This document shows, piece by piece, positions 5,963 to 32,218 of a stretch of 39,661 nucleotides of DNA. The stretch's first letter is position 1; each line of letters begins with the position of its first letter. Source of the DNA: a bacterium (lineage in GTDB: Bacteria > Patescibacteriota > Minisyncoccia > JAHIHE01 > JAGLIN01); the NCBI GenBank assembly GCA_030638825.1, contig DAOWDU010000056.1:1-39661 (forward strand). Direction: 5' to 3'. Both the position numbers and the translations under genes were made by a program. The notes below the pieces were generated by a model. It searched no databases, was not told the origin of the DNA, and was given only the letters and a program-made list of their open reading frames with translations.

Positions 5963-7192
5963 ATGCAAGGTAAAAATAAAGTATTGTTTAGATATTTAGA
6001 TAAGGAAGTTGCTTCTGTTATTAAGAAAAAGCAATCCTGTCTTATTTTAGGACCAAGGCAGGTTGGTAAAACCACTTTGGTTGATTTTTGTTTACGAAAA
6101 GAAAAAAATGTGATCAGGTTTCCTTTGCAAAATCCCAGTGTTAGAATAAAGTTGGAATCTGACCCAGGACTGCTTGTTAGAACCGTAGAAGCTGAAAAAA
6201 CTAAACCCATTGTATTCATTGATGAAGCGCAGAAAGTTCCGGAAGTCTTTGACGCGGCGCAATATTTAATTGACAATAAAAAGGCGCAATTTATTTTAAC
6301 AGGCTCTTCAGCAAGAAAATTAAAAAAAGCGGGCGTTAATTTGCTTCCAGGAAGAGTAAGGCATTTTTATTTAGATCCTTTTTTATGGGGAGAAATGGGG
6401 CTTGTTAAAGAAAATTATATTAGTTCGTTTAAAATAAAAAATATCAACAAAAATAAAATATATTCTTTTGAGGAATCTTTGATTTACGGCTCGCTTCCTC
6501 AAATAATTACAGAGCCACAAAAGGAGAGAGAAAGTCTGTTGCGGTCATATTCAGAAATTTATTTAGAAGAAGAAATTAGGGCAGAAGCGTTAAGCAGAAA
6601 AATTGGAGCATTCTCCAGATTTTTGGAATTAGCGGCGTTGGAATCAGGAACCTCCCCGAATTTTTCAAAATTATCCCAGCAGTCCGGCGTGAGCCAGCCA
6701 GCCATTAAAGAGTTTTATAATATTTTAGAAGACACTTTGGTTGCTGAGCGCGTGGATCCATTTTTAAAAAATGCTCGCAAGCGAATTATGTCTTCGTCCC
6801 GTTATTATTTTTTTGACTTAGGAGTTAGAAATGCTTTAGCAAGGTTGCCATTAGAAAAAAGGTTGATCAATGCCCAAAAAGGAATCCTTTTTGAAAATGC
6901 TATTATGTTAGAAATTATTAGAAGGACAAGGGCTTTAAATAAAAATTATAAAATAAATTATTGGCGGACGCAGGCAGGCGCCGAAGTTGATTGTATTATA
7001 GATATGGGCGATAAAGTTATTCCGATAGAGATTAAAGCGTCTAAAAGTATTTCTTTAGGCAAACTTAAAGGATTAAAAATCTTTTTAAGCGATTATAAGG
7101 ATATAGCTAAGCAGGGATATGTGATCACGATGGGAGAAAGAAAAGAAAAATTAGCTGATAATATAACAGCAATACCTTGGTTTTGTTTGTAG
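5963..7192 (+). CDS. AAA ATPase with DUF4143 C-terminal (PD-(D/E)XK-like) domain
   Basis: Walker A LILGPRQVGKTTL; Walker B PIVFIDEAQK; ILTGSSARKLK; C-terminal RTQAGAEVDCIIDMGDKVIPIEIKASKS. Confidence 0.93.
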   Translation: MQGKNKVLFRYLDKEVASVIKKKQSCLILGPRQVGKTTLVDFCLRKEKNVIRFPLQNPSVRIKLESDPGLLVRTVEAEKTKPIVFIDEAQKVPEVFDAAQYLIDNKKAQFILTGSSARKLKKAGVNLLPGRVRHFYLDPFLWGEMGLVKENYISSFKIKNINKNKIYSFEESLIYGSLPQIITEPQKERESLLRSYSEIYLEEEIRAEALSRKIGAFSRFLELAALESGTSPNFSKLSQQSGVSQPAIKEFYNILEDTLVAERVDPFLKNARKRIMSSSRYYFFDLGVRNALARLPLEKRLINAQKGILFENAIMLEIIRRTRALNKNYKINYWRTQAGAEVDCIIDMGDKVIPIEIKASKSISLGKLKGLKIFLSDYKDIAKQGYVITMGERKEKLADNITAIPWFCL

Positions 7193-12490: not shown

Positions 12491-13549
12491 CTTAACAACA
12501 ATCTAAACGCTTTTGGAATTGATTTTAGCGATCGGTCTATTAAGGTTGCTCAGATTAAAAAAAACAATAACAGATTACAGCTTTACGCTTATGGGCGCGA
12601 AGATATTCCGAAAGGATTAATAGTGGATGGAGAAATAAAAGAGCCAGGGGAAATTATTAGATTAATAAAAAAAACATTATCAAATTCAAAAATAAATCCA
12701 ATCAAATCAAAACTTGCTATCTATTCAATACCAGAACCAAAAGGATTTATACGCGTTATGGAAATAAAGAAAGTTGCGGAAAAAGATATTGAAGATGTTG
12801 TCAGATATGAAGCGCAGCAATTGTTTCCAATAAATATAGAAGAATCATATTTGGATTGGCAGATCTTGCCAGACGAAAATAATCAAAAGGAAACTATGAA
12901 AATTCTCATAGCTGTTGTGTCTCAAAAATTAGTAGATTCCTATTCAGCAGTCTTAAAGGATGCTGGATTAAAACCGGTGGCTGCTGAAATTGAATCAATT
13001 GCGATAACGAGAAGTTTAACTAATAAAAACCAATCATCAAGACCAATCCTCGTCATAGATTTAGGAAGGGACAGGACGAGCTTTATAATATTTAAAAATC
13101 CAGCCGTTCAATTTACGGCCAGTATTCCCGTCTGCGGAGAAGAAATTATTAAAGCGGTATCTAAGAGAATGGATATCAGCGAAAGAAAATCAGAAAAGAT
13201 AATAAAAGAATGCGGGTTGGTTTTTAAAGACGATTGCAAAGATGTTTACAGGGCGATTCAACCTTCTTTATACGAAATGATAAAATATATAAGCAAATTA
13301 ATTAATTTTTATAAAGAACATTATAAATCAGAAGCGGATATAGCCAAAGTTATTATTTGCGGAGGCGAAGCGAAAATACCGGGAATGAGCTCTTTCTTGT
13401 CGTTAAGAGTGAAAAAAGAAGTTGAAAAAGGAAATCCCTGGATAAATATAACTTCTTCCAATAAAAAAGAACCCCCTCTTTCTAGAAATGAGTCAATGGT
13501 CTTTGTGACGGTTTTAGGATTAGCATTGAGAGGAGTGGAGGAGTATTAA
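12482..13549 (+). CDS. pilM: Type IV pilus assembly protein PilM (actin-like ATPase)
   Basis: FGIDFSDRSIKVAQIKKN...; ILVIDLGRDRTSFIIF; VIICGGEAKIPGMSSFL. Start placed at ATG 12482; ORF-track start 12458 reads through the repeat. Confidence 0.93.
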   Translation: MLRLNNNLNAFGIDFSDRSIKVAQIKKNNNRLQLYAYGREDIPKGLIVDGEIKEPGEIIRLIKKTLSNSKINPIKSKLAIYSIPEPKGFIRVMEIKKVAEKDIEDVVRYEAQQLFPINIEESYLDWQILPDENNQKETMKILIAVVSQKLVDSYSAVLKDAGLKPVAAEIESIAITRSLTNKNQSSRPILVIDLGRDRTSFIIFKNPAVQFTASIPVCGEEIIKAVSKRMDISERKSEKIIKECGLVFKDDCKDVYRAIQPSLYEMIKYISKLINFYKEHYKSEADIAKVIICGGEAKIPGMSSFLSLRVKKEVEKGNPWINITSSNKKEPPLSRNESMVFVTVLGLALRGVEEY

Positions 13550-14295: not shown

Positions 14296-15693
14296 ATGAG
14301 GAAATTTTATAATAGAAAAAATGAATTAGCGATGCTGGACAAGCATTTTAGGATTGCTAAAAATAATATTTTTACGGAAGTTATTATTGGCAGGCGCAGA
14401 ATAGGAAAAACAGAGCTTATTAAAGAGCATCTTGAAAAAAAACCAGCGCTTTATTTTTATGTCACCAAGAAAAGTTCGCAAATTACTTTAAATGATTTTA
14501 CCGCGACTTTGAAAGAGCGTTTTCCTTTTGTCCCGTCAATAATAAATAACTGGGAGGATTTTTTTAATCTAATTTTTGAATTAAGCGGGAAGCAAAGGAT
14601 GGTTGTCGTTTTTGATGAATTCCAAAATTTTAACAGTATTGATAAATCCGTTTTTTCTATTTTGCAGAAAAAAATTGATGAGTATAAAGACAAATCTAAA
14701 ATGCAGTTGATTTTTATCGGCAGCATTCAAACTTTGATGGAAAAAATATTTATGCGGAAAGAGCCGCTTTATGGACGAGTTGATAATTTTATTTATTTAA
14801 AACCGTTTAGTTTTGGCGAGGTAGCTGTGATTTGCAATGATCATAAAGTTAAAAATATAGAAAGCGTTTTCAACTTGTTTTCTATTTTTGACGGTGTTGC
14901 TAAATATTATGATTTTTTGGAAAAATTTAATTTATTTAATAAACCGCTAGAAATAATTTTAAAAGAGCTGTTTATTAGCAGAGACACCCCGTTGTATAAA
15001 GAGGGGAAGAATTTATTAATAGAGGAATTCGGACAAGATTATGAAAGGTATTTTGATATCCTGTTTTGTTTGAGTATTGGTAAAACAAAAACAAGCGAAA
15101 TCGCTTCTGTCATGCAGCTGCCGGTAACAACCGTAAGTAAATATTTATCGGTTTTGGTTAAAAAATATAAATTGGCGGAAAAAAGAAATTTGCATAATAA
15201 AAAAAATAGTAAAGATAACCGTTATTATTTAAGGGATATATTTCTAAGGTTTTGGTTTCGTTATGTTTATAAAAATTACACTAAAATAGAAATAGGCAGT
15301 TATCAGCCAATTCTATCTGATTTCAAAAAGACATTTGATTCGCATCAGGGATTAATTTTTGAGGAGCTGGCAAGAAAACTTTTATATAAAAAAATGTTAG
15401 AGGAAAAAATATTGCCCTGTCAGGCAATGGAGATTAGCAACTATTGGGACAAGAAATATGAATTTGATATTTACGGACAAGAGAATAAGAATTTTATTAT
15501 TGGTGAAATCAAATTGAACAGCAAGGCGGTAGATAAAAAGTTGATTTATAAAATTGAAGAGTTTGCCGATTTCAGAAATAAAAATGCGATTAAAGTGATA
15601 ATTACTTTTGATAAAATTACTAATTTAAAAATGAAGAAATTATTAAAGGAAAAGAATTTTTATATTTTTGATCTGATGCAGTTAAATTCGTAG
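14296..15693 (+). CDS. AAA ATPase, ATPase_2 family with DUF234-like C-terminus
   Basis: MRKFYNRKNELAMLDKHF...EVIIGRRRIGKTELIKEHL; MVVVFDEFQN; FIGSIQTLMEKIF; YYLRDIFLRFWFRYVY; C-terminal EFDIYGQENKNFIIGEIKLNSK. ORF-track TTG start at 14245 is the promoter -35 element. Confidence 0.9.
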   Translation: MRKFYNRKNELAMLDKHFRIAKNNIFTEVIIGRRRIGKTELIKEHLEKKPALYFYVTKKSSQITLNDFTATLKERFPFVPSIINNWEDFFNLIFELSGKQRMVVVFDEFQNFNSIDKSVFSILQKKIDEYKDKSKMQLIFIGSIQTLMEKIFMRKEPLYGRVDNFIYLKPFSFGEVAVICNDHKVKNIESVFNLFSIFDGVAKYYDFLEKFNLFNKPLEIILKELFISRDTPLYKEGKNLLIEEFGQDYERYFDILFCLSIGKTKTSEIASVMQLPVTTVSKYLSVLVKKYKLAEKRNLHNKKNSKDNRYYLRDIFLRFWFRYVYKNYTKIEIGSYQPILSDFKKTFDSHQGLIFEELARKLLYKKMLEEKILPCQAMEISNYWDKKYEFDIYGQENKNFIIGEIKLNSKAVDKKLIYKIEEFADFRNKNAIKVIITFDKITNLKMKKLLKEKNFYIFDLMQLNS

Positions 15694-25418: not shown

Positions 25419-28142
25419 ATGAATAAAGAACAAGCGAAAGAAAAAATTAAAAAGCTGGTGGAAAGATATAAAAAATTATCGGAAGTTGAGAAGAAAAGAT
25501 ATAATGAACAGCAGACAAAGGATCATTTTATCCGTCCTTTATTTGAAGCGTTGGGTTGGAATTTTGAGGAGGATGTTTGGCCAGAAACAGATGTCTCTGG
25601 CAAGAGAGTGGATTATGCTTTTAAGACCGATGGGATTACAAAATTTTTTATAGAAGCGAAAAAGATAGCTGTCAATTTAGACGAGGAAAAATGGGCGAAG
25701 CAGGCGATTGATTATTCTTGGCATAAATCTGTGCCTTGGGTTATTTTAACTGACTTTGAAGCGATTAAAATTTTTAATACCGAGTGGGACACTCCAGATA
25801 TTCAGAGCTGTCAGTTTATTGAAATACCATGGACTGAATATTTAACAAGCGAAAAGTTGTGGTGGTTGTCTAAAGAATCTTTTCAAAAAGGAATTTTAGA
25901 ACAAGAAGCGGACAAATTAAACCGTCGTCCTAAAAAAATTATTGATGAACAATTGGCGAAGGATCTAATTAGATGGCGAGATTTATTACGCAAAGATTTA
26001 GAAGGATATAATCTAAAAATTGACAAGCAAAAAATCGCTGAATATGTTCAGAAAATTTTAGACAGGTTGATTTTTATCAGGACGCTTGAAGACAGAAAAA
26101 TTGAAGATGTAATTTTACAGCCCCTGGCGAGAGAGTGGGAAGAAAAAGAGGGAGTTAAAGCAAATAAATTATTGTCCGCTTTGAATAAAACTTTTCGCAG
26201 AATTGACAAAACATATAATAGCGGACTATTTGCCGAAGGGGCTTGCGATTATTTGGGCGATAAAATAGATGGCGATGATAATACTTTTGTAGAGATTATC
26301 AATGAATTATACAAAACGAAAGACAAGGGAATCAGATATAACTTTGCCGACATCCCAGCGGATATCTTCGGCGGAATTTACGAACAGTATTTGGGTTATA
26401 TTCAAAAAGAGGATTTGAAACAAAAGAAAACAAGCAAGAGAAAATCGCAGGGGATTTATTACACTCCTCGCTATATTGTTGATTATATCGTTCAAAATAC
26501 TTTGGGCGAGGTTCTGAAAAATAAAACACCAAATGAAATCAGAAATCTTAAAATTCTAGATCCCGCTTGCGGTTCTGGTTCTTTTCTAATTACCGCTTAT
26601 CAATCCTTAATTGATTATTGGCAAAAACAGGATAGAAAACGATTTAAACAGGAAAGCGATAAATTAAGAAAAATAGAGCAGGCGTTTAAAAAGCGAAATG
26701 GCAATTTAATTTCTTCGCAGGAGAAAATGAGGATTTTGTTGAATAATATTTATGGCGTTGATTTGGACAAGGAAGCGGTTGAACTGGCAAAACTGAATTT
26801 GCTTATGAAAATGGTTGGCAGCAAAATCAAACTGCCGAAATTGGGCAGTAATATTCAAGAGGGCAATTCTTTAATTTCGGGGAGCGAGAAGGAATTGAAG
26901 AAGTATTTTGGGAGGGGATGGAAAAATAAGAAGGCGTTTGAGTGGAAGGGGAAGTTTGATGTAGTGATTGGGAACCCGCCGTATATACAATCAAGAAATT
27001 TAAATGATGAAGAAAGATATTTTTATTGGAATAAATATTTAACGGATACTAATCATTCTGATATCTATTCTTTTTTCATTGAAAGATCAATTGATTTACT
27101 AAACGAAAAAGGAGTTTTGGGATTCATAGTGCCAAGCACATGGCTACAACTTCCAAGTTTTAAATCTCTTAGAAAAAAGATTTTTAACGAGTGTAGGGTT
27201 TTAAATATATTGTTTTTTGCTGAAAATGTAAAAATATTTAATGATGCTCAAGTTTTAAATATAGTATTGATTTTACAAAAAGAATCAGATGAAAAATTTA
27301 TTCAAAGTCATTCTATAAATATAATAAAAGGAACAATTGATCAAAAAAATGTTTTATACGGTAAAATAAAACAAAAAGATATTAAAGCCGAAGAAGGATT
27401 TAATATCTTTACTAATCCTGTGCTTAGAAAAATATTAGATAAGATATTAAAATGTTCCGTTGATTTAATTTCTGTAAGCAAGATTGTTGGAGGTTTAAGA
27501 ACGGGAGATGATAATAAGTTTTTGAAAGGCAAATTTGATAATAAAGATGATAAAAAATTATTAAGAGGAAGAAATGTGGGACGCTATTATCTAAAATGGA
27601 ATAATGAATATGTTTGGTATAAACCAGAATTAATGAAAGTAAAACAGGCGGCAGCGCCAAAAGAGGCGAAAATTTTTGAGAACAAAGAAAAGTTGTTGAT
27701 TAGAATGATAACTGGCGACGCAATTGTGGCAACTTATGATAATAAGGGATATTATTTTTTGCAGGATAATCTTATTTTGCCTAAAGATAAATATGATGTT
27801 AAATATTTATTGTCAATTCTAAATTCAAAATTATCTAGATTTATAATCAAAAGCACGATGTCTAATATTGCCGTAACACAGTCATTGTTAAAAGTTTTCC
27901 CGATTTACAAAATAGATTTCTCTGACAAAAAAGAAAAAGCCAAGCATGACAAATTAGTAAAGTTGGCTGATGAGATGTTGAAACTAAATAAAGAGCTGCA
28001 AAAATTTGATCCGATGTTGGATGAGGTGGAGTATAAAGAGATAAAAGAAAAGATTGAAAAGACGGATAGGGAGATTGATGGGAGGGTTTTTGAGTTGTAT
28101 GGGTTGGGGGAAGAGGAGATTGGGATAATTGAGAAAAATTAA
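25419..28142 (+). CDS. Type IIG-like restriction-modification enzyme (Eco57I-like N6-adenine MTase with N-terminal nuclease-like domain)
   Basis: PD-(D/E)XK-like VDYAFKTDGITKFFIEAKK; MTase motif I ILDPACGSGSFLI; motif IV VIGNPPYIQS; C-terminal TaqI-like specificity region. Confidence 0.9.
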   Translation: MNKEQAKEKIKKLVERYKKLSEVEKKRYNEQQTKDHFIRPLFEALGWNFEEDVWPETDVSGKRVDYAFKTDGITKFFIEAKKIAVNLDEEKWAKQAIDYSWHKSVPWVILTDFEAIKIFNTEWDTPDIQSCQFIEIPWTEYLTSEKLWWLSKESFQKGILEQEADKLNRRPKKIIDEQLAKDLIRWRDLLRKDLEGYNLKIDKQKIAEYVQKILDRLIFIRTLEDRKIEDVILQPLAREWEEKEGVKANKLLSALNKTFRRIDKTYNSGLFAEGACDYLGDKIDGDDNTFVEIINELYKTKDKGIRYNFADIPADIFGGIYEQYLGYIQKEDLKQKKTSKRKSQGIYYTPRYIVDYIVQNTLGEVLKNKTPNEIRNLKILDPACGSGSFLITAYQSLIDYWQKQDRKRFKQESDKLRKIEQAFKKRNGNLISSQEKMRILLNNIYGVDLDKEAVELAKLNLLMKMVGSKIKLPKLGSNIQEGNSLISGSEKELKKYFGRGWKNKKAFEWKGKFDVVIGNPPYIQSRNLNDEERYFYWNKYLTDTNHSDIYSFFIERSIDLLNEKGVLGFIVPSTWLQLPSFKSLRKKIFNECRVLNILFFAENVKIFNDAQVLNIVLILQKESDEKFIQSHSINIIKGTIDQKNVLYGKIKQKDIKAEEGFNIFTNPVLRKILDKILKCSVDLISVSKIVGGLRTGDDNKFLKGKFDNKDDKKLLRGRNVGRYYLKWNNEYVWYKPELMKVKQAAAPKEAKIFENKEKLLIRMITGDAIVATYDNKGYYFLQDNLILPKDKYDVKYLLSILNSKLSRFIIKSTMSNIAVTQSLLKVFPIYKIDFSDKKEKAKHDKLVKLADEMLKLNKELQKFDPMLDEVEYKEIKEKIEKTDREIDGRVFELYGLGEEEIGIIEKN

Positions 28143-28999: not shown

Positions 29000-29033
29000 G
29001 TCGTAGGGGCGGGTCGCGACCCGCCCCTACGAC
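29000..29033 (+). repeat. REP-like perfect 34-bp palindrome
   Basis: gtcgtaggggcgggtcg|cgacccgcccctacgac. Confidence 0.95.
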
Positions 29034-29058
29034 GGGATAAAACGGAAATTATTACATT

Positions 29059-29076
29059 GCGACCCGCCCCTACGAC
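29059..29076 (+). repeat. Half-copy of the REP-like palindrome
   Basis: gcgacccgcccctacgac, identical to the right half of 29000-29033 plus one base. Confidence 0.9.
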
Positions 29077-29119: not shown

Positions 29120-29686
29120 ATGCCAAACAAAAATTACAATCCCAAAATTCATCATCAATCAATGCGATTGAAAGATTATGATTATTCGCAAGACGGATAT
29201 TATTTTGTGACAATTTGTGTGAAAAATAAAACCGAATATTTTGGTGAAATAATCAACGGGAAAATGATTTTGAATGAATATGGAGAAATTGCGAAAAAAC
29301 AATGGTTATGGCTGACAGAACAATATAATTATGTAAAATTAGACGAATGGATTATCATGTTAAATCATCTGCACGGAATATTGATTATTGAAAATGGCAT
29401 TAAAAATATTGGAACAGATCGCGTTGTCGTAGGGGCAGGTCGCGACCTGCCCCTACGACCGCAAACGCAAAAAATCAAACCATTGTCTGAATTAATCGGC
29501 GCATTTAAAACTACATCATCAAATTTAATTCATCAGAACAGTTTATCCGAATTTCAATGGCAACGAAATTATTACGATCGCATTATCCGCAATGAAAAAG
29601 AATTAGATAAAATCAGAAAATACATTTTTGAGAATCCGTTAAAATGGGAATTAGACAGAAATAATCCAGAGAATTTATTTATGTAA
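29120..29686 (+). CDS. REP-associated tyrosine transposase (RAYT / Y1 HUH family)
   Basis: HUH motif in MLNHLHGILIIE; YYDRIIRNEKELDKIRKYIFENPLKWELD typical of RAYT C-terminus; flanked by and containing REP-like palindromes. Confidence 0.93.
   Translation: MPNKNYNPKIHHQSMRLKDYDYSQDGYYFVTICVKNKTEYFGEIINGKMILNEYGEIAKKQWLWLTEQYNYVKLDEWIIMLNHLHGILIIENGIKNIGTDRVVVGAGRDLPLRPQTQKIKPLSELIGAFKTTSSNLIHQNSLSEFQWQRNYYDRIIRNEKELDKIRKYIFENPLKWELDRNNPENLFM
29426..29459 (+). repeat. REP-like 34-bp palindrome inside the RAYT coding sequence
   Basis: gtcgtaggggcaggtcg|cgacctgcccctacgac, read in frame within RVVVGAGRDLPLRP. Confidence 0.95.
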
Positions 29687-29808: not shown

Positions 29809-29894
29809 GTTATGACAAATTAGGGGATTCTTCACGAAAAATTTAGCATTTTATAAGGAATAAAAAAGAAAAAGCGTTTTCCTTTCTTCAATTT

Positions 29895-29996
29895 TCCAAG
29901 TTTATCTTTTTTAAAAATCCCCCAGTCCCCTTTGCGAAAGGGGGAGACGAAAAAGATAAATTTAGAAAAACTCTTGAATAACTTATAACAAGTTTG
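29895..29996 (+). repeat. Two-hairpin element copy 1, with a CCCCTTT-GCG-AAAGGGG palindrome nested in its first loop
   Basis: ttttccaagtttatctttttt...aaaaagataaatttagaaaaactcttgaataacttataacaagtttgagagttt. Confidence 0.75.
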
Positions 29997-30001
29997 AGAG
30001 T

Positions 30002-30036
30002 TTAAAAACAAAAGGCTCCACACAGAGTATGGAGCC
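30002..30036 (-). terminator. Intrinsic terminator for the minus-strand HEPN/MNT pair
   Basis: Minus strand reads GGCTCCA-TACTCTGTG-TGGAGCC-TTTTGTTTTT. Confidence 0.8.
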
Positions 30037-30061
30037 AGCGAGTGTTCCTTGAAATAAAACA

Positions 30062-30403
30062 CTAACAATCTTTAATCGGGATTTCAATGCCAGTGGTTTT
30101 GATCTCGTGGATTAGAGAATTATATTTATCATTAAAATCCCGCGGACAGAAACCGATTGGTTCAATGGAATATTTCATATCAAAAATTTCTCGCTTTGAC
30201 CATAAATATTCCAATGCCTTCCAACTATTTTGAAATTTGGGAGAAACGACACAAATATCAACATCACTCCACTTATGTTGCTTGCCTTTGGCGTAAGATC
30301 CAAAAAGAATTACCTTTTTAATTGGCAATTTGTCGGCTCTTAAAATCTCAACAAACTCATCTATTTTGTTTATTACTCCTTTTGGTATTCTTTTTTTAGA
30401 CAT
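30062..30403 (-). CDS. MNT-type nucleotidyltransferase (antitoxin-like)
   Basis: KKVILFGSYAKGKQHKWSDVDICVV: GSX10DXD minimal nucleotidyltransferase motif; overlaps upstream HEPN gene. Confidence 0.9.
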   Translation of the reverse strand: MSKKRIPKGVINKIDEFVEILRADKLPIKKVILFGSYAKGKQHKWSDVDICVVSPKFQNSWKALEYLWSKREIFDMKYSIEPIGFCPRDFNDKYNSLIHEIKTTGIEIPIKDC

Positions 30404-30771
30404 AAATATAATTCTTTAGAGATGTTAAAATATTCTTCAATATAAGATTTATCGCATTGTTTATAAAACGCGAATTTTATATCATCATAACGCTCAGCCA
30501 TATTAAATTTAGAAATAATCCTCAAGTTTTCTATTTGTTCATCTGTTAATTTCGCTTCCGCTAAAATCGCTAATTTTTTAAGATCATGAATATAAGGAAC
30601 TGGCTTCTCAGTTTGCTTGACTACTAATCCTTTCAATGATTTCTCCAAAGTCAAATGACAAAAGAAAAGACAAGCATCGTAGCGTTTCAATTTCAACAAC
30701 CCTTGAGCAGTCTCCCAATTTCTATCAGCCGATGTTTTCCAATAAGCGATTTGTTTTTCTAAATTACTCAT
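30373..30771 (-). CDS. HEPN domain protein (toxin-like partner of the MNT)
   Basis: IAYWKTSADRNWETAQGLLKLKRYDACLFFCHLTLEKSLKGLVVKQTEKPVPYIHDLKKLA; paired with MNT. Confidence 0.9.
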   Translation of the reverse strand: MSNLEKQIAYWKTSADRNWETAQGLLKLKRYDACLFFCHLTLEKSLKGLVVKQTEKPVPYIHDLKKLAILAEAKLTDEQIENLRIISKFNMAERYDDIKFAFYKQCDKSYIEEYFNISKELYLCLKKEYQKE

Positions 30772-30807
30772 AATCTAATTATACTTTTATAAAAACCTAA
30801 TGTCAAT

Positions 30808-30876
30808 TCTTCCAAGTTTATCTTTTCAAAAGGTAAATTTAGAAAAGCTCTTAAATAAAAATTTGAGAGTTTAAAC
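30808..30876 (+). repeat. Two-hairpin element copy 2
   Basis: attcttccaagtttatcttttcaaaaggtaaatttagaaaagctcttaaataaaaatttgagagttta. Confidence 0.75.
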
Positions 30877-30909
30877 GCACATTGAAAAATTGAATAAATA
30901 AATTCTTTG

Positions 30910-31011
30910 GTGGCGAAATGGTTATTACTAAATATTTATCAGTAATAGCTAATTTGCCGCTAAGGAATAATCCTTGGCGAGTAAAATTTGGCCCATTTTA
31001 ATATAATGGGC
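30910..31011 (+). promoter_or_regulatory. Structured leader with three successive hairpins upstream of 31024
   Basis: GTGGCGAAATGGTTATTACT/AGTAATAGCTAATTTGCCGC (G-U rich stem), AAGGA/TCCTT, GCCCATT/AATGGGC just before GAGGTG ribosome-binding site. Confidence 0.55.
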
Positions 31012-31023
31012 GAGGTGAAGAAA

Positions 31024-31929
31024 ATGAACAATAAAAAATTTTTAGACATGTTAGACGTGTCAAAAAAAACAACCCTCACTCGTGAGGGAAAGTTAGAATA
31101 TGTTTACGAAAGATACGGGACTCCTCATCACTCTTTCCGTATCATGGAGTGGTCAGAGGAAATCGCCGCAGAGGAAATTACTTCTGATCTAAAGAGAGAA
31201 GGATTAGAGGGAATTCTTGGAGATTTCATTTATTTGGAATCACAGAACCTCAGCGCGTTCGCTTTGCCAGAGAATGTTGTCATCCGTCTTTCCGACGATG
31301 ACTGCGGCATCGTGACCAGAGGAGATTCCTTGATGATATTCTATCTTCTTCTCAAGGCTAAGTGGGTCTTCGGAGAAGGAAGAGGAGGGATCTTTGAAAC
31401 TTCTGACGGGCAAAAGTTTCTGGTTGGGGGATCAAAGGGGGACCCCTATACTACGAGTAGTATGTCCTTTTCTCCTCTTTCTGACGAGGAGGTTGATGAT
31501 TACATCAACCGAAAGGAAGAAGAAAAAAGAGCCGAAAAAGCTGCTTTGGAAGAAGCTCAGAAAATCAGGGAAGAGGAAAGGGAGAAAGAGTATCTCCAGT
31601 ATCGTTCTTCCATCCGTGGTCTCACGGAGGCCTTAGGGCTCAGTATCCTCGAGCGGAAGAATATTGCCACAAGCATGCCTCCCGCCTATATGGTTTGTAA
31701 GAATGTGGAGGATTTCTCAAACGACGAGTATCAAATGTCGTTTGAGCTTGTGGCTTCCTTCTGTTCACCAGAAGGTCCTTATGCCTTCCTCCGGAGTATT
31801 GTCAAATATGTCCGCCAGACAAACGACGGGCAGATTAGTAGGAAGGCTTGGGACAGTCTCAACCTTGACGATGCCTTGAATTTCGCTCATAAGGAGCGAG
31901 AAAGGTATGAGGAAAAAATGGATCGTTAG
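31024..31929 (+). CDS. Uncharacterised protein (about 301 aa), possible orphan
   Basis: ATG at 31024 preceded by GAGGTG Shine-Dalgarno; ORF-track TTG at 30988 lies in the leader hairpin. Less AT-rich than neighbours. Confidence 0.75.
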   Translation: MNNKKFLDMLDVSKKTTLTREGKLEYVYERYGTPHHSFRIMEWSEEIAAEEITSDLKREGLEGILGDFIYLESQNLSAFALPENVVIRLSDDDCGIVTRGDSLMIFYLLLKAKWVFGEGRGGIFETSDGQKFLVGGSKGDPYTTSSMSFSPLSDEEVDDYINRKEEEKRAEKAALEEAQKIREEEREKEYLQYRSSIRGLTEALGLSILERKNIATSMPPAYMVCKNVEDFSNDEYQMSFELVASFCSPEGPYAFLRSIVKYVRQTNDGQISRKAWDSLNLDDALNFAHKERERYEEKMDR

Positions 31930-31957
31930 TAACGATTCCAAAAATTAACATTTTTTA

Positions 31958-32030
31958 GGAGCGGGAAAACAATGGCAAAAGAGAAACAATTTGTAAGAAA
32001 AGTTTCTTGATTATCTCGTCTCTCGCTCCT
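31958..32030 (+). other. 12-codon ORF (MAKEKQFVRKVS) whose Shine-Dalgarno lies in a 10-bp hairpin stem
   Basis: AGGAGCGGGA at 31957-31966 pairs with TCTCGCTCCT at 32021-32030; ATG 31972, TGA 32008-32010. Confidence 0.45.
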
Positions 32031-32033
32031 CCA

Positions 32034-32099
32034 CTTTTCCAAGTTTATAAATTAATTTTATAAATTTAGAAAAATCCCTGAATAAAAAATTCGGAGATA
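32034..32099 (+). repeat. Two-hairpin element copy 3
   Basis: ttttccaagtttataaattaattttataaatttagaaaaatccctgaataaaaaattcggagata. Confidence 0.75.
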
Positions 32100-32105
32100 T
32101 AAATC

Positions 32106-32218
32106 AGAATCTTCTTTCAAAACCAGGCAGGCAGTTTTTTGCTAAAGCTCTAAATTTTTAAAATTAAGAACTTCAGCAAATCTCTCTCCAAACTGCTTGC
32201 CTGATTTTGGAAGAGAAT
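32106..32218 (+). other. Long imperfect hairpin (about 110 nt), candidate structured RNA
   Basis: tcttctttcaaaaccaggcaggcagttt pairs with aaactgcttgcctgattttggaagaga; inner ttgctaaagctct/agaacttcagcaa. Confidence 0.6.

Follow-up and report, generated by a model that had tools for sequence, protein, structure and literature searches.

A two-hairpin RNA motif between the genes of Paceibacteria arrays, with possible parallels to rRNA operons

Integrons are the textbook system in which captured genes are lined up, and they need a DNA recombinase. REP/REPIN sequences with an associated RAYT gene are short repeated hairpins, and the put RNAs of phage HK022 consist of two adjacent hairpins, about 65-70 nt, in the nascent transcript. 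The rrn operons combine boxB, boxA and boxC with a leader-trailer helix, and their pre-rRNA is laid out as boxA, leader strand, unit and trailer strand (PMC10250234).

The locus described here, at positions 29,892-32,212 of an analysed stretch of 39,661 nt (the window), can be set beside each of these systems. With integrons it shares same-orientation arrays, a structured repeat 3' of each gene, a content rich in orphan and toxin-antitoxin (TA) genes, reversed TA modules and an empty/occupied site; in contrast to integrons, it has no adjacent integrase and no attC core boxes, the sense RNA folds, loop length is free, and a boxA and promoter platform takes the place of attI. The likeness to REP/REPIN lies in the short repeated hairpins and the RAYT-like gene adjacent in the window, whereas the low copy number, the position at gene ends and the covariation are different, and the RAYT gene is accompanied by another palindrome. 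The put RNAs, compared here by description and not by sequence, have a similar two-hairpin build and a role in antitermination of the kind we infer below, but in our case no phage genes lie nearby, the repeats stand between chromosomal genes, and boxA is 3' of the element. Parallels to the rRNA operon leader (boxB-boxA-boxC, rrnTAC) are a promoter, a boxA near the start, a second boxA before the next unit, and complementary 5' and 3' flanks; here, however, each unit carries protein genes, which vary from species to species, the H1-H2 hairpins are additional, a single bacterial order is involved, and Nus binding is putative. The arrangement as a whole is new, and its component parts are known from elsewhere. 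Our literature search, which took in few subscription journals, found no paper on Patescibacteria integrons of such a kind or on such an RNA.

The three copies in the window and their surroundings

The window corresponds to contig C50 in a genome of 1.15 Mb and 57 contigs. As the preliminary description had reported, with starts that were off by 0-3 nt and with correctly quoted stems, it carries three copies of a two-hairpin element in one orientation, all on the plus strand, at 29892-30006, 30808-30875 and 32035-32103. They belong to an RNA motif, H1-H2, that covaries very strongly and is read from the same strand as the genes beside it. Hairpin H1 has the form TTTTCCAAGTTTAT..ATAAATTTAGAAAA, and H2 follows directly 3' of it (H1 29892-29969 and H2 29970-30001 in copy 1; 30808-30846 and 30847-30870 in copy 2; 32035-32073 and 32074-32098 in copy 3). 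Copy 1 is unlike the others in that its H1 loop contains a 37-nt C-rich repeat. A fourth copy in the same genome (C22:28124-28194) has an orphan gene on one side and an opposite-strand TumE-type TA pair on the other.

The bracketing of genes described earlier is also correct: copies 1 and 2 enclose a minus-strand HEPN/MNT TA pair, and copies 2 and 3 enclose a plus-strand orphan gene. Copy 1 is followed on the plus strand by a third hairpin, GGCTCCA..TGGAGCC (30014-30036), a module that in other genomes occurs 3' of H2 or 5' of a domain named CORE5, and by the boxA-like sequence TGTTCCTTGAAA (30043-30054, an 11/12 match). The TA pair consists of the MNT nucleotidyltransferase (30062-30403, assigned by its NTP_transf_2 domain match) and the HEPN-domain protein (30373-30771), and its perfect sigma-70-type promoter (TTGACA-17-TATAAT, 12/12; 30778-30806, minus strand) adjoins H1 of copy 2. 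On the plus strand, copy 2 leads into a boxA-like leader, CGCACATTGAAAAATTGAATAAATAAATTC (30876-30905, 9/12), that resembles the boxA region of the rRNA leader in sister genomes, and then into predicted leader hairpins (30909-30975) that lie between boxA and the orphan gene (31024-31929; the frame is also open from a TTG at 30988), for which no Pfam or PADLOC match was found. Directly 5' of copy 3 a further predicted plus-strand hairpin, H0 (AGGAGCG...CGCTCCT, 31957-32030), holds a 12-codon mini-ORF in its loop; comparable H0 hairpins stand 5' of H1 in other genomes. Beyond copy 3 lies a 3' module (32112-32212, plus strand), a long stem with a bulged-out AUCUCUCUCC, which is also found beside arrays of genomes G012 and G001.

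Such 3' modules adjoin arrays and expose CUCUCUCC, complementary to GGAGAG. At the opposite end, several arrays open with a long noncoding stretch, in which a sigma-70-type promoter is combined with a GAGGAGAG-bearing boxA-like leader, a terminator-like hairpin and the CORE5 domain, which carries GAGGAGAG too. A model of CORE5 matched 11 of the 18 genomes of the order, with one to three matches per genome, and none of the other genomes drawn from the class; with double changes in only 1 of 27 pairs, the domain is too conserved for a covariation test. A start platform of this type was sought for the window array and not found: CORE5 is absent, though the 3' module is present. In L063 the CORE5 domain is duplicated in tandem (6000-6098 and 6425-6523), and each of its copies carries GAGGAGAGAG, largely outside stems and complementary to the CUCUCUCC exposed by the 3' module.

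On the 5' side of copy 1 the window holds restriction-modification, RAYT and REP sequences. An Eco57I-type restriction-modification gene (25419-28142) lies shortly 5' of the array region, and a RAYT-like (Y1_Tnp) gene (29120-29686) has GTAGGGGC palindromes upstream (29003-29073) and one within the gene (29429-29456); these palindromes are unrelated to the two-hairpin element.

Distribution, covariation and strand of the motif

A first covariance model, A3, was built from the three window copies and C22:28124-28194, in an alignment whose loops were trimmed by hand so that MAFFT held the stems in register. Chance can be excluded, because A3 recovers copies outside its training set in other genera, with E-values down to 5e-15; it matched 13 of the 14 genomes of the same family. 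A second model, derived from 25 matches, found the element in 14 of the 18 genomes of one Paceibacteria order. This second model had no match in the 366 other genomes drawn from the class; there, as in the CORE5 scan of other orders, the stricter filters may miss weak copies. The resulting catalogue of 67 sense copies was assembled by hand, antisense mirrors being removed and weaker matches inside arrays being admitted, and its weakest entries (E above 0.01) are likely to be genuine members. The named records in which further members occur are metagenome assemblies that bear the label Paceibacterota, Parcubacteria or Patescibacteria; the DNA pattern also matches a record with the label Clostridia (L095). 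In Rfam the element has no match at the gathering score, the sole match in the window being a tRNA elsewhere, and targeted scans for known Rfam RNAs gave sub-threshold chance matches only. Scans of viral contigs, made with a virus origin in mind, gave one chance match in a tRNA-rich phage (L096), and this origin was rejected.

That the stems vary between copies and still pair, as noted from the three copies, holds for the family: double-sided changes occur at 19 of the 28 pairs among the 51 stronger aligned copies. In this alignment, which was fitted to the model and thus leans towards structure, 91.7% of cells pair, as against at most 58% once the strands are slid, and the covariation score was reached by none of 500 shuffles.

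Several features bear on the choice between RNA and DNA. Independently of the alignment, RNA folding energies favour the sense strand in 54 of the 61 copies (p=4e-10), and DNA energies favour it in 43 copies against 16. Two H1 pairs (model columns 9 and 14) are mostly G-U, and H2 contains 44 G-U versus 4 A-C cells in 25 copies, a count somewhat biased by alignment with the sense-strand model. The H1 loop ranges from 1 to 121 nt and exceeds 20 nt in 12 of 51 copies, the stem being kept. Strand bias, G-U pairs and free loop length fit an RNA hairpin rather than a protein-bound DNA site of fixed spacing. The suggestion of a repeated regulatory RNA in the preliminary description is thus backed by covariation, G-U tolerance, sense-strand stability and loop insertions, together with the adjoining boxA-like signal considered below.

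Long H1 loops often hold MITE-like repeats. Repeated GTCATTCTGAA...TTCAGGATGAC sequences, for example, are found within H1 loops in L069 (G005), L115 (G007) and L063, and it looks as if the loop can accommodate insertions of small mobile repeats.

Arrays, gene-content breakpoints and boxA-like signals

The element forms same-orientation arrays of up to eight copies (e.g., G013:C31, G012:C64, G001:C72 and G016:C160) and usually stands 20-150 nt 3' of an ORF stop codon. For 48 of 64 copies the closest ORF on the 5' side shares the strand of the element, and the median distance to H1 is 54 nt; control positions gave 238 same-strand versus 286 opposite-strand cases. Opposite-strand genes between copies include TA pairs (HEPN/MNT, AbiE, PIN/AbrB-like) and a putative tRNA nucleotidyltransferase-like gene, named by reading its sequence. 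The other array genes are mostly orphans, with GNAT, radical SAM, SAVED, DEAH helicase, MoxR/vWA, Csx3 and methyltransferase genes among them, and related cassette proteins recur in arrays of different genomes. Some elements have core genes as neighbours, and no cassette is apparent there. In G001 an H1-H2 element separates Csx3 from its AAA partner (L062:15961-16266 and 15034-15597); the PADLOC model has the two as one fused protein, and the split pair suggests co-transcription across the element.

Cassette proteins of four genomes (L061:1618-1971, L062:4795-5442, L069:7160-7891 and L059:3-344) resemble one another weakly, with E-values of about 1e-5 to 1e-6. In at least three of the four an HxH....YWHPxxRVH-type motif can be seen by eye, and it might serve in targeting or as a tag. 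Tiny ORFs ending in DYPDGDDLIAPKNN and DYPNGDDIMSPKNN lie directly 5' of the element in L067 (G003) and L069 (G005), at different loci of two genera.

The covariance search yielded, besides further copies, an association with gene content: the copies mark gene-content breakpoints, because the locus upstream of infB and other shared loci differ in the genes they carry. The infB locus was compared directly in four species of one genus, so that the empty/occupied comparison is of one locus in one genus. Here G006 and G007 carry one element each, whereas G005 has two elements around a 243-aa gene and G004 two around a 174-aa gene, and these two genes have no detectable similarity to each other. 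G005 and G007 are near-identical as far as the leader strand and Shine-Dalgarno (SD) sequence, then diverge into different small ORFs (MTAGDYPNGDD.. and MATKPWEESPD..), and identity resumes at the trailer strand and H1. Gene content also differs at yraN (G000, G003) and htrA-clpB (G001, G012), the gene names being read from the sequences.

For boxA we used the general boxA-like consensus TGYTCTTTRAMA, and counted as strong any match of at least 11/12 within 300 nt. Such a sequence stands 3' of the element in 26 of 65 copies and 5' of it in 5 of 65; on the reverse strand there was none (0/65). Strong matches thus follow only about 40% of copies, and window copy 2 reaches 9/12. The sister genomes G010, G011 and G012 have a boxA-like sequence of the same kind in their rRNA leaders, about 200 nt 5' of 16S and soon after the promoter. 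NusB is encoded in 15 of the 18 genomes of the order, the window's included; the search gave no NusB for G001 and G016, both of which bear arrays and may have contigs missing.

In many units a AAAAAGGGGAAG-like sequence lies right 3' of boxA and its complement just 5' of H1. A leader-tail test with 160-nt leaders of all 34 units gave p=0.005, and, because this version was noisy, the test was repeated anchored on boxA; in the 29 boxA-anchored units cognate leader-trailer pairing exceeds that of permuted partners (permutation p=0.0002). Examples of covarying leaders and trailers are AAAAAGGGAAGTGT/ACACTTCCTTTTT and AAAAAGGGAGAAAAT/ATTTTCTCCCTTTTT. The pairing is significant for the set and clear in roughly one third to one half of the units; others have a local hairpin (H0) instead of the trailer strand, as at window copy 3, and the units of the window itself belong with the weaker examples, outside the clear cases. 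This patchiness of boxA and end pairing across units is the main weakness of a reading modelled on the rRNA operon.

Competing readings and the proposed mechanism

On balance, and by a little more than an even chance, we regard H1-H2 as an RNA motif of the sense strand that stands where rRNA-operon-like transcription units with exchangeable protein genes meet. One alternative sees in the elements no more than the usual hairpins between the genes of operons, acting as terminators, processing sites or 3' mRNA stabilisers where gene content varies, and gives boxA and antitermination no part. Such hairpins commonly stabilise 3' ends, the distance of 20-150 nt from stop codons suits them, and the copy on G000:C22 has a terminator-like second hairpin with a T tract. 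Most H2 hairpins, however, lack a T tract, the H1 sequence is conserved beyond the needs of a generic hairpin, and both the boxA enrichment and the cognate leader-trailer pairing would go unexplained, and we consider this reading rather unlikely. A mobile hairpin of the REP/MITE type, mobilised for example by the RAYT transposase at 29120-29686, would account for the RAYT-like gene adjoining copy 1 and for the common MITE-like inserts in H1 loops. The elements, however, number four to ten per genome, cluster at ORF ends and are oriented with the ORF, the RAYT gene has palindromes of its own, and base-pair covariation across genera points to function. A REP/RAYT origin was rejected on copy number (4 copies in 1.15 Mb in the window genome) and position, and we give the wider REP/MITE-like reading very little credence.

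The preliminary description had also offered a recombination site that organises cassettes. Cassette organisation stands as a description, given the same-orientation arrays and the sister species with an empty versus occupied site; a recombination site in the integron sense finds no support. Such a site would consist of hairpins of folded single-stranded DNA, between which cassettes would be moved by a tyrosine recombinase, and this would suit the arrays, the interchangeable genes, the empty and occupied sites, the reversed TA modules, the abundance of orphan, TA and GNAT genes in the cassettes, and the likeness of motifs within a genome. A search for Xer-like genes, however, found no integrase next to the arrays, with the one exception given below: there is usually one full-length Xer-like recombinase per genome, on contigs without arrays (the contigs are fragmented). 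The best fold is that of the sense strand, as opposed to the bottom strand in attC, G-U pairs are tolerated, and H1 loops vary from 1 to 121 nt. The attC core boxes R'' (RYYYAAC) and R' (GTTRRRY) are absent from the alignment, in which the conserved ends are TTTTYYAA/TTRRAAAA. We therefore hold an integron-like site to be improbable. The sole Xer-like gene near an element (G002:C94:11407-11967, with the element at 12617) is about 0.3 kb away and divergent from it, an integron-like arrangement; this element matches the motif weakly.

Under the reading that we prefer, of H1-H2 as an RNA junction, a unit would open with a boxA-like Nus site and the leader strand, run on through a structured leader and an SD sequence to the ORF(s), and close with the trailer strand or H0, then H1 and H2, before the next boxA, with some arrays starting from a conserved CORE5-type platform and some carrying the CUCUCUCC-exposing 3' module. 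NusB/S10 on each boxA would make RNA polymerase resist termination along the array, and would keep hold of the 5' end of the unit until the trailer emerges and pairs with it. The H1-H2 element may then punctuate the RNA, setting a limit for processing or for stability, and each ORF would end up in a folded segment of its own. As the motif recurs at every junction, ORFs could be swapped, gained or lost by recombination between direct copies with the transcript logic unbroken; homologous recombination would be the simplest route. Toxin-antitoxin modules would travel reversed, in the window with a promoter of their own.

A more far-reaching proposal, which we put forward tentatively and regard as possible rather than probable, is that a lineage with reduced genomes has repurposed the transcription machinery of rRNA operons (boxA antitermination and the leader-trailer helix) to express, in modular fashion, protein genes that are exchanged horizontally. 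H1-H2 would be the joint common to all units, and the whole would be the counterpart, built on RNA, of the integron. What joins the captured genes appears to be RNA, a motif that deals with expression rather than with cutting, and an ORF inserted between two such joints would acquire antitermination and end pairing with its place. This would be a large set of protein genes with rRNA-style antitermination, and it would give a handle on how Paceibacteria, with genomes of about 1 Mb, keep changing their orphan, toxin-antitoxin and defence-like (SAVED, Csx3-AAA) genes.
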